The position numbers were made by a program, and so were the translations under genes. From IMG/VR virus record IMGVR_UViG_3300023179_005355, positions 1 through 64,000 of that record: a DNA stretch of 64,000 bases. The stretch is one strand, 5' to 3'. The notes under the pieces were generated by a model, which worked only from the letters and a program-made list of their open reading frames with translations, was not told the origin of the DNA and did no database searches. The DNA is from a virus. Of the stretch, positions 11,168 through 14,859 are shown piece after piece (the stretch's first letter is position 1; every line of letters begins with the position of its first letter).

Positions 11168-13198
11168 ATGTCAAAGATAATACCTCCATCTCCAACACCC
11201 ACAAGAACACCAAGTCCTACGCCTAAACCGCCTAAAATTAGGTCGGATGAAACATGTATTATAATTGATCGTTCTTTGGTCACTCCTACACCAACTAGAA
11301 CTTTAACCAAAACGCCTACACCTACTAAAACTCCTAAAAAAACACCTACACCTACTCCTACAATCACTCCATCAATAACTCCGACTATAACTAAAACCCC
11401 TACGAAAACCCCTACAAGAACACCAACTAGAACACCTACAAAAACACAAACCCCAACAGTAACTAGAACTCCTACTGTCACACCGACCATAACTAGTACT
11501 CCTACTGTCACTCCAACAATGACAGTTACTAGTACAAGAACACCAACTCCAACACCAAGCATAACTGCTACTAAGACTCAAACACCAACTGTAACTCCTA
11601 CACAAACAAAAACACCAACAGTAACACCAACTATTACTGTTACTCCAACAAATACTATCACCCCAACCAAAACATCCACACCAACAACCACTCCGACAAA
11701 TACAATAACTCCAACAGCAACGCCAACAGCAACTATAACACCTACCCCGTCGAGACAAACTTGTTGTGAATGGGATGGTAATACATTTATTCAGTTTGGA
11801 GAAACCTGTAATAATTTAATATTACCAGTGCAGTATACAAAGACGGGACCATCTACATGGACTGCAAACGGGACATTAAATTGTGGAGACACTTTTACGT
11901 CTACAATAACTTGTAATCCAGATATTAGATACGCTGGAGCAAACTCGTGTATCAATAAGTGGTCTTTTTCACTCACAATGTCATGCGCTACTGGCTTAAT
12001 AATTACAGGGGTTAGAGAAGTATGTCAGTGTAATGCTCCTCCTATTTGGAGTTTTATTGCAGATTTTTCTAATTGTAGTTGCTGTACTCCAACACCAACA
12101 TCTAGTCCAACACCCACAGTAACTAAAACCCAAACTCCTAAACCAACACCAACTGCCACTAGTACTCCAACACCATCTATTTCGCCCAGAACATGTTGTG
12201 ATTGGAATGGTTTGACTACATTTGTATTAAACTGTAGTAATATGAGTAGAACGATAACATTAGATTTATTCTTCACTAAAGTCATGCCTAATTATTGGAC
12301 TAGTAGTGGAACATTATCATGTGGCGACACATATTTTATGGCAGTAACATGTGATCCCAGCGTACCATATACGGGATCATCATCATGCGCTAATAAATGG
12401 ACAGCTACCGCCAATATATCTTGTGTTAATGGTCTAAATATTTCAGGAACATCTACTGCTTGTCAGTGTGATGTGCCTCCAGTATGGGTATTTGATGGAG
12501 ATACCAATAATTGTAATTGTTGCACACCGTCACCTTCAAGCACACCAACACCAACACCGTCTGTGAATTGTCAGTTATCTCCTCCTACTATTGTAGAATC
12601 TGGTTGTGCGTGTTTTGATGATGGGGTGGCTGGCGCAAATGATACATTAGTCTCTTTGAATTGGTCATGGTCAGGATTATCTTCTCCAAATAATCAAAGC
12701 TGCGCTACAGGCTATATGATTCAAGCGGTAGACCATAATGGACAATTATTAGATCAGGTTTGTATATTCAATACTCTTATTAATTCATACAATTTTTCTT
12801 TAACAAGTCTATTGGGACCTAGACCAGACAATATAGCAGCCTCTCAAGAATGTTCCAACGGCTATGTTAAATTTAGAATCAAAACTATTTCTTTAAACTA
12901 TTGCCAAGAGTCTGCATTAGATAGTGCTTGGTCTAGTTTTACGGAGGAGTACTGCTGGGAGTCGTGTAATGAAATTATAATTTGTGATGGATTTATTGAC
13001 GGCGCTCTTATTAATAATGGTATAATTGTAGAATTGCAGGTAGAGAAGAATAGCGAATGTTGTTGTTCTATTGAATATTCATTAAATAATAGTAATTCAT
13101 GGAACCCACTACCAGTATCTGCTATAGATTGCGACACAGTTAATCCGGGATATTCATATTCTATTAATTCAACGTGTTTTGGAGATATAATACCATGA
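11168..13198 (+). CDS. mucin-like Thr-Pro-rich protein with two Cys-rich repeats
   Basis: A 676-residue protein. Residues 8-196 are nearly pure Thr/Pro with Lys, Arg, Ser and Val (TPTPTxTPT repeats). Two homologous Cys-rich domains follow (about 197-307 and 341-452), each opening CC[ED]W and sharing CGDT, INKW/ANKW and CQC before a C-C-TP ending. Short TP linkers separate them. A third domain (467-676) has its own cysteines and ends at the next gene's ATGA start. There is no signal peptide. Thr/Pro tracts of this kind are classic O-glycosylation substrates, and sugar-transfer genes crowd the next 30 kb. I infer a virion surface fibre or adhesin. Confidence 0.65.
   Translation: MSKIIPPSPTPTRTPSPTPKPPKIRSDETCIIIDRSLVTPTPTRTLTKTPTPTKTPKKTPTPTPTITPSITPTITKTPTKTPTRTPTRTPTKTQTPTVTRTPTVTPTITSTPTVTPTMTVTSTRTPTPTPSITATKTQTPTVTPTQTKTPTVTPTITVTPTNTITPTKTSTPTTTPTNTITPTATPTATITPTPSRQTCCEWDGNTFIQFGETCNNLILPVQYTKTGPSTWTANGTLNCGDTFTSTITCNPDIRYAGANSCINKWSFSLTMSCATGLIITGVREVCQCNAPPIWSFIADFSNCSCCTPTPTSSPTPTVTKTQTPKPTPTATSTPTPSISPRTCCDWNGLTTFVLNCSNMSRTITLDLFFTKVMPNYWTSSGTLSCGDTYFMAVTCDPSVPYTGSSSCANKWTATANISCVNGLNISGTSTACQCDVPPVWVFDGDTNNCNCCTPSPSSTPTPTPSVNCQLSPPTIVESGCACFDDGVAGANDTLVSLNWSWSGLSSPNNQSCATGYMIQAVDHNGQLLDQVCIFNTLINSYNFSLTSLLGPRPDNIAASQECSNGYVKFRIKTISLNYCQESALDSAWSSFTEEYCWESCNEIIICDGFIDGALINNGIIVELQVEKNSECCCSIEYSLNNSNSWNPLPVSAIDCDTVNPGYSYSINSTCFGDIIP
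11186..11755 (+). repeat. minisatellite-like ACxCCNAC repeat encoding Thr-Pro tract
   Basis: About 570 bases of degenerate tandem repeats based on 'ccaacaccnacn' and related 6-, 12- and 18-base units encode the TP tract. Synonymous variation between copies shows it is old and under amino-acid selection. Slippage-driven length change is likely. Confidence 0.75.
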
Positions 13199-14691
13199 CA
13201 ACTCCCCTAATTAATTGCGACAAAAAAATAATTAAATTATATGTTCCTGGTAGTATATTGTCTCCAGGAGGATCTAGGGCTTCTAGTATTCAGTTGCGTA
13301 TTGGAGGCAGCGGCTGTTGTGACAAATCTAATATCATAGATATTCCATTACCGCCCCCACCCCCACCACCTCCTACGCCAGTGCCAGATATTTGTTTAGG
13401 GGAAGGTGTTGATCTGTATGGATACACCGCAATTGTATCATATGATCCGGTCAATTGTTCTGCTGGTCACTCATGTAATAGGGCTATTTTTAATTTTTAT
13501 ATTGACAACAATTTGATAGGCGAAGCAAATTTAAATAATTTTCCTGATGGGAGGTATAGAGAAACAGTATTTACAATTAATGAACATATTCTTAGCAGTC
13601 AGTCTACTACATTACGACTAGAATGTAATTTATCAGATTGCCATAACGGCATCGGAAGAGTTACGATCAAAGATCCAGCTAATAATATAGTGTTAGCCCT
13701 TTGTATGCCTAACGATATTGTCGTTGGTGGTTTTATATGTCCTTCTCCCAAAGTTTTAGGACCTACTCATAATAGTTCAGCCAATGCACTAAATACAAAT
13801 ATACAAGTAAATGCTGGATCTCTATTAACAATATCGGCTGATGGCAATATTAATGTAGGATGGTCAGATCATCCTGGAGCATATGGTCCTGATGGAATAC
13901 CAGGAACAGGCAATGATCCACTTTCTGGATTTCCTTATGTTAGTTTGCTTGGCCGTATTGGTGAATCTGGTACGGTATTTTTTGTTGGATCATCTTATAG
14001 TGCTATAGCAAACGAAACAGGCAAACTATATTTATTCTTTTATGATCCGCAGCCTCAAGATAATACTGGACATTTTAATGTTTGTGTTTGTATTGATGAT
14101 GAGGGTTCAACCAATTTGGTTTTAAATGGAGATTTTGAGTCTGGAACGCCAGGATCTGCTCCAGATGTTGGAACATCCCCAGTTGGGGCATTAGATTATT
14201 GGACTATATCTAATGTGGATATTCATTCACTTTCACAATATGATGATACTCAGCCTGTTAATAAATGGATAGATTTGAATGCTTTAAGTGCAGGATATAT
14301 TCAACAAAGTATTAATACAATTATTGGAAGCACATATTCAGTAACTTTTAATTTGGCTGCACATAATATTACAGAAAAAAATATCGTAAAAACATGCAGA
14401 TTATCGATTATTGGTTCGTCAACAATTACAAAAGATTATTCTTTCGATCCATCGTCTACTACATTTGGAACATATGAGTCTATGGGCTGGGTTACTAAAA
14501 CTCTTGTTTTTACAGCAGATAGTACGATTACACTTGTAAAATTTGAAAGCACCTGTACGGATTGTGGCGTTGTTGGGGCGGCTATAGATAATGTGGTTGT
14601 AAAATTATGTAATAATAATGCTACTGCAATTTCGCCATCACCAACACCTACACCAACTCCCACGCCAACACCTATCCCTTCAATCATTTGA
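13195..14691 (+). CDS. lectin-like adhesin: polyproline, LecA-like and DUF642-like domains
   Basis: A 498-residue protein. A polyproline run (about 52-62) follows a short N-domain. About 187-303 resemble the PA-I galactose-lectin fold (VNAGSLLTISADG, YVSLLGRIG, GKLYLFFYDP). About 305-472 resemble DUF642/choice-of-anchor C sugar-binding domains (NLVLNGDFESG, W-x-x-SNVDIHS, IDLNALSAGYIQQS). The tail is SPSPTPTP-type. Its ATG overlaps the stop of the mucin-like gene (ATGA), with GGAGA upstream, so the two are co-translated. Likely a carbohydrate-binding virion component for host attachment. Confidence 0.6.
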   Translation: MTTPLINCDKKIIKLYVPGSILSPGGSRASSIQLRIGGSGCCDKSNIIDIPLPPPPPPPPTPVPDICLGEGVDLYGYTAIVSYDPVNCSAGHSCNRAIFNFYIDNNLIGEANLNNFPDGRYRETVFTINEHILSSQSTTLRLECNLSDCHNGIGRVTIKDPANNIVLALCMPNDIVVGGFICPSPKVLGPTHNSSANALNTNIQVNAGSLLTISADGNINVGWSDHPGAYGPDGIPGTGNDPLSGFPYVSLLGRIGESGTVFFVGSSYSAIANETGKLYLFFYDPQPQDNTGHFNVCVCIDDEGSTNLVLNGDFESGTPGSAPDVGTSPVGALDYWTISNVDIHSLSQYDDTQPVNKWIDLNALSAGYIQQSINTIIGSTYSVTFNLAAHNITEKNIVKTCRLSIIGSSTITKDYSFDPSSTTFGTYESMGWVTKTLVFTADSTITLVKFESTCTDCGVVGAAIDNVVVKLCNNNATAISPSPTPTPTPTPTPIPSII

Positions 14692-14715
14692 AATTTATAA
14701 ATAAAAGGTATTATA

Positions 14716-14859
14716 ATGACTATAATTAATATTAATTGCTGTCCAGTACCTACTCAAAAACCCCTTACTAGTGTGACCCCAACACCAACAGTTACTCCAA
14801 CTGTTACTATAACACCAAGCAGAACCATACTGAGCGGAGGCGGCGGAGGGGGTGGTTAA
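14716..14859 (+). CDS. short TP-rich protein with poly-Gly end
   Basis: A 47-residue gene. It starts MTIININCCPVP, continues with TPTPTVTPT repeats and ends in a run of seven Gly. AAAGGT precedes the ATG. The composition matches the two adhesin genes upstream, so it is either a small partner of them or a detached C-terminal piece of a fibre gene. Glycine-rich ends are common in phage tail-tip proteins. Confidence 0.5.
   Translation: MTIININCCPVPTQKPLTSVTPTPTVTPTVTITPSRTILSGGGGGGG

Follow-up and report, generated by a model that had tools for sequence, protein, structure and literature searches.

Results

Thr-Pro-rich proteins and glycosyltransferases at the locus

The window analysed here comprises the first 64,000 of the 91,875 bases of virus record IMGVR_UViG_3300023179_005355, in which three adjacent open reading frames (ORFs) with Thr-Pro (TP) tracts, designated TP-A, TP-B and TP-C, are followed by a large set of glycosyltransferase (GT) genes that includes a member of family GT60 (Table 1). 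Genes for NrdJ and a RecA-like protein, replication genes recognised by eye, and the relatives of the contig mark the source as a large tailed-phage genome. A second contig of 197,026 bases (the twin; L009/G036) overlaps the far end of the 91,875-base record, and encodes an identical GT60 and a TP-A that is identical from residue 201 onwards.

TP-A has a Thr/Ser/Pro tract of 167 residues (aa 34-200) and shorter stretches at aa 1-29, 298-346 and 445-476, the last two approximating the TP linkers that separate two Cys-rich modules of ~110 aa with 43% mutual identity. Shuffling its own residues 2000 times gave 15.8 TP dipeptides on average and 26 at most, whereas the protein has 48. TP-B, whose only tract is a C-terminal one of 27 residues (aa 472-498), has eight TP dipeptides (maximum of 11 in its own shuffles) and TP-C has four (shuffles reach five). 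The TP tracts that an earlier note on this DNA had described are confirmed, as are their coordinates, with TP-A being the only one of the three to exceed its composition control. Thr codons in the long tract of TP-A are mixed (ACT 32, ACA 32, ACC 9, ACG 3), and it therefore seems that what is kept is the peptide and not a repeat in the DNA; expansion of a DNA microsatellite was rejected as the origin of the tract on the same grounds. In two TP-A orthologs, which are close to each other, the tract is ~66% identical to that of TP-A and still TP-rich. For comparison with the 167 residues of TP-A, the longest low-complexity region in a survey of 102 phage proteomes was 115 residues (PMC6821194). 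TP-B also has a match to PA-IL, a galactose-lectin-type domain, that is below the cut-off. Protein searches of the phage collection with the low-complexity filter on gave no match for TP-A or TP-B.

Ten window proteins exceed the curated Pfam cut-off for GT-type families (GT25, GT60, HtrL_YibB, GT15, RXYLT1_C, GT2, GT4, RgpF, O-FucT and Nucleotid_trans, the last being PF03407, which holds GT77). Five more are putative transferases: the ORF starting at 27553 has a sub-threshold match, that at 43852 has an uninformative one, and those at 17239, 25360 and 47692 are without a match. The cut-off is also passed by the FkbM and Methyltransf_24 methyltransferases and by a GDP_Man_Dehyd-type dehydratase. 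The GT set described in the earlier note (about fourteen putative transferases, two methyltransferases and a dehydratase-like enzyme) is confirmed.

Table 1 TP-tract ORFs and GT, methyltransferase and sugar-enzyme genes in the window
Feature	Coordinates	Strand	Remarks
TP-A, 676 aa	11168..13198	+	N-terminal TP tract, two Cys-rich modules, TP linkers, C-terminal domain
TP-B, 498 aa	13195..14691	+	ATG at 13195, GTG at 13174 also open; P8 stretch, DUF642
TP-C, 47-codon ORF	14716..14859	+	Short TP tract, Gly-rich end; gene status uncertain
Putative transferase	17239..18009	-	No Pfam match; relatives in 15/80 GT60 loci
Putative methyltransferase	18006..18710	-	By eye; no Pfam match
FkbM-type methyltransferase	18692..19387	-	Pfam
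GT25-type glycosyltransferase	19374..20153	-	Pfam
GT60 (PF11397, GlcNAc), proposed initiating polypeptide GlcNAc-transferase	20160..21473	-	Pfam, model fold
HtrL_YibB-type, two tandem GT-A-like domains	21445..23106	-	29-bp overlap with GT60
GT15-type (PF01793)	24523..25359	+	Pfam
GT-cluster ORF without Pfam match	25360..26211	+	
RXYLT1_C-type glycosyltransferase	26208..26981	+	Pfam
Methyltransf_24 methyltransferase	27035..27553	+	Pfam
GT2-like	27553..28206	+	Below cut-off
GT2	28196..28930	+	Pfam
GT4	30918..31985	+	Pfam
RgpF-type	41925..42851	+	Pfam
NDP-sugar 4,6-dehydratase/epimerase (GDP_Man_Dehyd)	42858..43859	+	Pfam
Putative transferase, 676 aa	43852..45882	+	Pfam uninformative
O-FucT-type	46154..46918	+	0.4 bit above cut-off
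Nucleotid_trans (PF03407)	46919..47704	+	Pfam
Putative transferase	47692..48342	+	No Pfam match
GlcNAc, N-acetylglucosamine; NDP, nucleoside diphosphate

The phage GT60 is predicted to share the fold of mucin-initiating transferases

The phage GT60 matches PF11397, the Pfam family that corresponds to CAZy GT60, with an E value of 7.8e-77 (259.5 bits, cut-off 21). In IMG/VR, 127 of 129 pattern-matched stretches encode GT60 relatives, of which the best 80 (hereafter the 80 GT60 loci) are 61-100% identical. Residues D113, S114 and H115, a DSH-type motif for metal and nucleotide, are invariant in all 26 aligned phage GT60 proteins. Structural searches using an AlphaFold2 model of GT60 (predicted local distance difference test score of 89) returned only polypeptide N-acetylgalactosamine (GalNAc)-transferases in rows 1-47 of Foldseek and in rows 1-29 of VIA-align (Z 19.9-22.8, root mean square deviation 3.1-4.0 Å over 259-283 residues), with a drop to Z 18.2 over 188 residues at the next fold family. 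The modelled fold of the phage GT60 is nearest to that of the mucin-initiating polypeptide GalNAc-transferases (GT-A). In protists, mucin-type O-glycosylation is initiated by GT60, which adds alpha-GlcNAc (PMC8724618), and in Trypanosoma cruzi mucins the acceptor is Thr (PMC3769586).

The only close bacterial GT60 relatives found were on three contigs of metagenome-assembled genomes (one of Alphaproteobacteria and two of Saprospiraceae; L421-L423), one of which (L422) also has a Thr/Ser/Pro repeat; all three may be phage sequence.

GT60 co-occurs with TP tracts in virus records and cultured phages

Virus records, every one of which is possibly a fragment, were screened on both strands using a codon pattern for TPTxTPT, with the reversed pattern as a control. 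The earlier note had suggested looking for TP-rich proteins together with GT60 in phage genomes, and the association is strongly positive: GT60-carrying large phages nearly always carry long TP-stalk proteins, with the pattern present in 36 of 38 GT60 records of at least 60 kb and in 29 of 30 clusters following de-replication at 95% nucleotide identity of GT60. The two records without it are a fragment with a TP-bearing near-twin and a 131-kb record. The pattern was found in 4 of 24 arbitrary virus records of at least 40 kb (taken from the reversed-pattern scan, among the matches listed; a 25th, L275, matched both pattern scans and was excluded) and in 4 of 19 GT60-less NrdJ relatives, giving Fisher p values of 6e-10 and 4e-8, respectively, relative to the GT60 clusters. 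The single arbitrary record with GT60 (1/24) is one with 102 TP matches. In the reverse direction, GT60 was detected in 19 of 39 TP-rich records of at least 60 kb, among the matches listed (p 1e-4 relative to the arbitrary set; p 0.02 when size-matched, with GT60 in 1 of 11 arbitrary records of at least 60 kb). Family GT4, found in 34 of 36 records, shows no association with TP and was rejected as a TP marker.

In the phage collection, GT60 was matched by XacN1, Stenotrophomonas phage RAS14 and CM1 only, of which the latter two look like near-copies. All three have the TP pattern (51, 22 and 22 matches, respectively), whereas it is absent (count of 0) from all seven GT60-less cultured phages chosen by the analyst as controls. 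These include RaK2, whose genus is a distant relative according to the XacN1 authors (PMC5852040).

One explanation for the association is that large aquatic phages simply inherit GT60 and TP proteins together as accessory genes, with the tracts being unglycosylated, extended linkers. Both traits are typical of large phages, and 20 of the 39 TP records above have no detectable GT60; many of these are fragments, which may or may not explain it. Association within one lineage was analysed using NrdJ (best 80 of 173 loci fetched, of which 35 records are at least 40 kb; six are shared with the 38 GT60 records). Eleven of these records have both GT60 and TP, five GT60 only, four TP only and 15 neither (Fisher p 0.006); for records of at least 100 kb the counts are 5, 1, 1 and 6, respectively (p 0.025). 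The five of 16 GT60-positive records without the pattern, among which there is one obvious truncation, are as co-inheritance would allow. On the NrdJ tree there are 11 GT60 changes and 12 TP changes, indicating that the association is not simply shared descent. A tree-corrected pair test was one-directional (2.7 versus 0.0) and underpowered (median p 0.25), and few branches (7 of 27) are well supported; two sets of identical proteins are split across GT60/TP groups, as expected of fragments. Co-inheritance has to contend with this repeated change within a lineage, with the same association in cultured jumbo phages (and the absence of both traits from RaK2), and with direct adjacency of GT60 and TP genes above background (below), and we regard it as quite improbable.

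GT60 gene neighbourhoods contain HtrL/YibB and TP genes

The partner protein encoded next to GT60 is a tandem pair of GT-A-like domains, the first of which is of HtrL_YibB type. In the model the listed ORF (23202) begins with 32 disordered residues, and M33 was taken as the start. HtrL/YibB is present in 71 of the 80 GT60 loci at 1e-6 (53 of 62 clusters at 1e-20). It immediately precedes GT60 in 37 of these loci and is located elsewhere in the other 34. A complete HtrL/YibB gene that overlaps GT60 was found in 34 of 78 loci, the overlap being 29 bp in 31 of them. All 10 of the 35 NrdJ records with HtrL/YibB are GT60-positive and nine of these have TP tracts, compared to two of the six GT60-positive NrdJ records without HtrL/YibB.

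A TP gene immediately precedes GT60 in 14 of 78 loci, on the GT60 strand in 12 of these (gaps 19-209 bp), and immediately follows it in none of 79. Relative to a background of 75 TP genes in 1599 ORFs (of 100 aa or more), the upstream rate has a p value of 1.5e-5. In 44 of 80 loci (37 of 62 clusters) a TP tract is found no more than ~10 kb from GT60, and eight further large records have tracts elsewhere.

The 80 GT60 loci contain 59 distinct TP ORFs (median 593 aa) with 118 tracts, 90 of them internal, and an overall tract composition of 38.5% Thr and 21.1% Pro. Pfam recognises domains in only a few of the 59; these include DUF642 (3), Laminin_G_3 (2), FGE-sulfatase (2), Mtd_N (1) and fn3 (1). 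Virion-type PHROGs were matched by four, of which one traced ORF matches baseplate wedge, head closure and tail fibre types, another matches virion structural and tail types, and the remaining two match via phrog_8510. In addition, phrog_15511 was matched by 41 of the 59. The XacN1 proteins ORF232, ORF233 and ORF236, the three scanned, match it from their first residues (E 1e-187 or better), and the XacN1 TP proteins are assigned to phrog_24687 and phrog_15511. The other matches, which in those inspected cover the tract region only, are probably tract similarity rather than the homology that they might suggest.

A further TP ORF at the end of the contig (91314-91874) is, according to the twin, the C-terminal part of a 479-aa protein with an FGE-sulfatase-type domain. 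Near this protein the twin encodes one of 1513 aa, in which a TP tract and three DUF285 stretches accompany an FGE-sulfatase domain (L437 4869-9410), and it also encodes a separate 579-aa TP protein. FGE-type domains have the C-type-lectin-like fold in common with some phage receptor-binding proteins. No match to PHROGs was obtained for four large ORFs at 74955-91290.

Several other genes were noted in this region. Directly behind the TP genes (15170-16854) are two proteases, one with a trypsin fold and a hydrophobic, signal-like segment at its N-terminus, the other of subtilase type; their relatives are found in 39 and 41 of the 80 GT60 loci. An actin/ParM-like protein (10148-11149; by eye, no PHROG match) has relatives in 30 of the 80. 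An IMP dehydrogenase/GMP reductase-type enzyme is encoded inside the GT region (29818-30918), and a papain-like cysteine protease (by eye, no PHROG match) at 39878-40804. A second run of GT-like genes is located at 66889-72711 of the contig, with the first gene alone exceeding the Pfam cut-off.

Several TP proteins of XacN1 are encoded next to tail genes

XacN1 ORF334 is a GT60 that is 49% identical to that of the window by tblastn (54% in the alignment), and the HtrL/YibB partner is also present. Of the ORFs around the XacN1 pattern matches, 15 of the 21 examined have TP tracts. ORF350 adjoins the tail tube gene ORF351 (phrog_4542), and ORF369, ORF370 and ORF372 have the tail sheath gene and its stabilizer as same-strand neighbours. 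The 3313-aa ORF325, which matches virion structural phrog_10938 (6e-73), neighbours a baseplate wedge gene, and its TP tracts are close to the C-terminal end. ORF232-237 are six tandem paralogs (L436 1049-10105) with a common N domain of ~200 aa that is 36-60% identical, a TP tract from approximately residue 200, and C-terminal ends that are mostly unrelated, only those of ORF233 and ORF234 being alike. Exchangeable tips on a single type of base and stalk would be expected to have this layout.

The XacN1 authors describe two GTs (ORF328 and ORF334), saw no tail fibres, and report "at least two glycoproteins" from proteomics (PMC5852040). The annotation gives the TP genes as hypothetical or predicted, or under other names. 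The word "threonine" does not occur in the main text of that paper.

Alternative targets of the glycosyltransferases

A set of this kind might remodel host surface polysaccharide, leading to receptor masking or superinfection exclusion, with the TP tracts being unmodified linkers of tail proteins. GT2, GT4 and FkbM are common in surface-polysaccharide pathways, the Pfam labels GT25 and RgpF are for lipopolysaccharide (LPS) or rhamnan synthesis, and HtrL/YibB turns up with papers on lipooligosaccharide loci. The GTs other than GT60 and YibB also differ from phage to phage among the 80 GT60 loci. Set against this, no clear membrane segment (19-residue hydropathy mean of at least 1.6) was found in any of the 19 GT, methyltransferase and dehydratase-type window proteins (highest value 1.59), nor were the membrane-bound parts expected of a lipid-linked LPS or capsule pathway found among them; the modelled GT60 fold is nearest to protein glycosyltransferases; and the tracking of TP by GT60 while GT4 does not is left unexplained. 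Such remodelling appears unlikely as an account of the whole locus and may still apply to part of the GT set.

The GT60 could also act elsewhere, on hydroxyproline of a host or phage protein (Skp1-like) or on phage DNA. One GT60 branch uses the hydroxyproline of Skp1 as acceptor (PMC8724618), and DNA-modifying phage GTs are known (PMC5852040). The hydroxyproline route, which the earlier note had raised, found little support: the prolyl-hydroxylase-type 2OG-Fe oxygenase PF13640 is present in 2 of 35 GT60 records, one of them over the cut-off, and is absent from the 197-kb twin, with related Pfam families and host enzymes being outside this search. Action on either of these targets leaves the link to TP tracts unexplained, and is considered very improbable.

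The earlier note had also named a GT15-like enzyme of a fungal protein-mannosylation family. The assignment to GT15 passes Pfam; a general role does not follow, as relatives were found only in the twin in a single-sequence scan of virus contigs and the 80 GT60 loci, and GT15 was rejected as a general partner.

Discussion

The analysis shows TP tracts, a set of enzyme families with their predicted folds, the co-occurrence of GT60 with TP, and the gene context. These point to phage-encoded mucin-type O-glycosylation of virion stalk proteins, to which we assign a probability of roughly 0.6. In the proposed mechanism, a soluble cytoplasmic GT60 would place the first N-acetylhexosamine, most likely alpha-GlcNAc, on Thr of the phage TP tracts, the two-domain HtrL/YibB-type GT would extend this first sugar, and phage-specific GTs, methyltransferases and a sugar dehydratase would decorate or cap the glycan. 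The sugar-coated tracts would form stiff stalks or linkers on tail-associated proteins, and could keep domains at their tips, lectin-like or other, at a distance from the tail or baseplate. More tentatively, and with somewhat less than even odds, many large phages of several lineages may have their own mucin-type pathway, consisting of GT60, HtrL/YibB and phage-specific extenders, that builds TP "bottlebrush" stalks with exchangeable receptor-binding or lectin-like virion tips.

The glycan-coated virion fibre proposed in the earlier note is consistent with the co-occurrence, with XacN1 TP tracts on a virion-family protein and on products of tail-module genes, and with the glycoproteins reported for that phage; the glycan on the tracts is predicted rather than observed. 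The acceptor role of the TP tract, the identity of the sugar and the stalk function are what we infer. Several points weigh against mucin-type glycosylation of the stalks, in addition to the incomplete overlap of GT60 and TP records, the tree-corrected test and the tree support described above. TP-A and TP-B match no virion family in PHROGs. The kinship of GT60 with the GalNAc-transferases is one of modelled fold alone, with no sequence match to chains in the Protein Data Bank, including by profile search. The XacN1 glycoproteins may be non-TP proteins, that phage has another GT (ORF328), and the TP tracts could be plain linkers that travel with GT60.

Virion glycosylation by phage enzymes is already known and little explored; the version with GT60 and TP stalks appears to be new. 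No paper linking GT60 with phages was found in the literature searched, with most subscription journals outside it, nor, among the papers listed, any that deals with phage TP stalks. The question is directly testable, as cultured phages have both a candidate acceptor and a marker that recurs (GT60, mostly accompanied by HtrL/YibB). If true, stalk glycosylation would be a prokaryotic-virus counterpart of eukaryotic mucins, made by the enzyme family of protist mucins, and would bear on the spread of GT60 among viruses, bacteria and eukaryotes, on the display of phage adhesins at a distance from the particle, and on the phage surfaces met by antibodies or mucus.

The proposed system resembles several that are known. 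Like the protist GT60 enzymes (T. cruzi TcOGNT-2, Dictyostelium Gnt2 and Skp1 Gnt1), the phage GT60 has PF11397, Thr/Pro-rich candidate acceptors and a GalNAc-transferase-like fold (PMC8724618, PMC3769586), whereas it is phage-encoded and predicted to be soluble, is located beside HtrL/YibB or a TP gene in many loci, and has candidate acceptors of virion type. The animal mucin-type GT27 GalNAc-transferases are the best structural matches of the GT60 model and likewise have Thr/Ser/Pro-rich acceptors; the match spans the catalytic part, and there is no detectable sequence similarity to their structures. Phage-encoded GTs have been linked to virion-protein glycans in mycobacteriophages Che8 and Rita, where the acceptor is the major capsid protein (PMC11256854), in contrast to the candidate TP stalks and the GT60/YibB pair of the present phage. 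A further resemblance is to Xanthomonas phage XacN1, which combines GT60, the YibB partner and many TP-tract proteins with reported glycoproteins.

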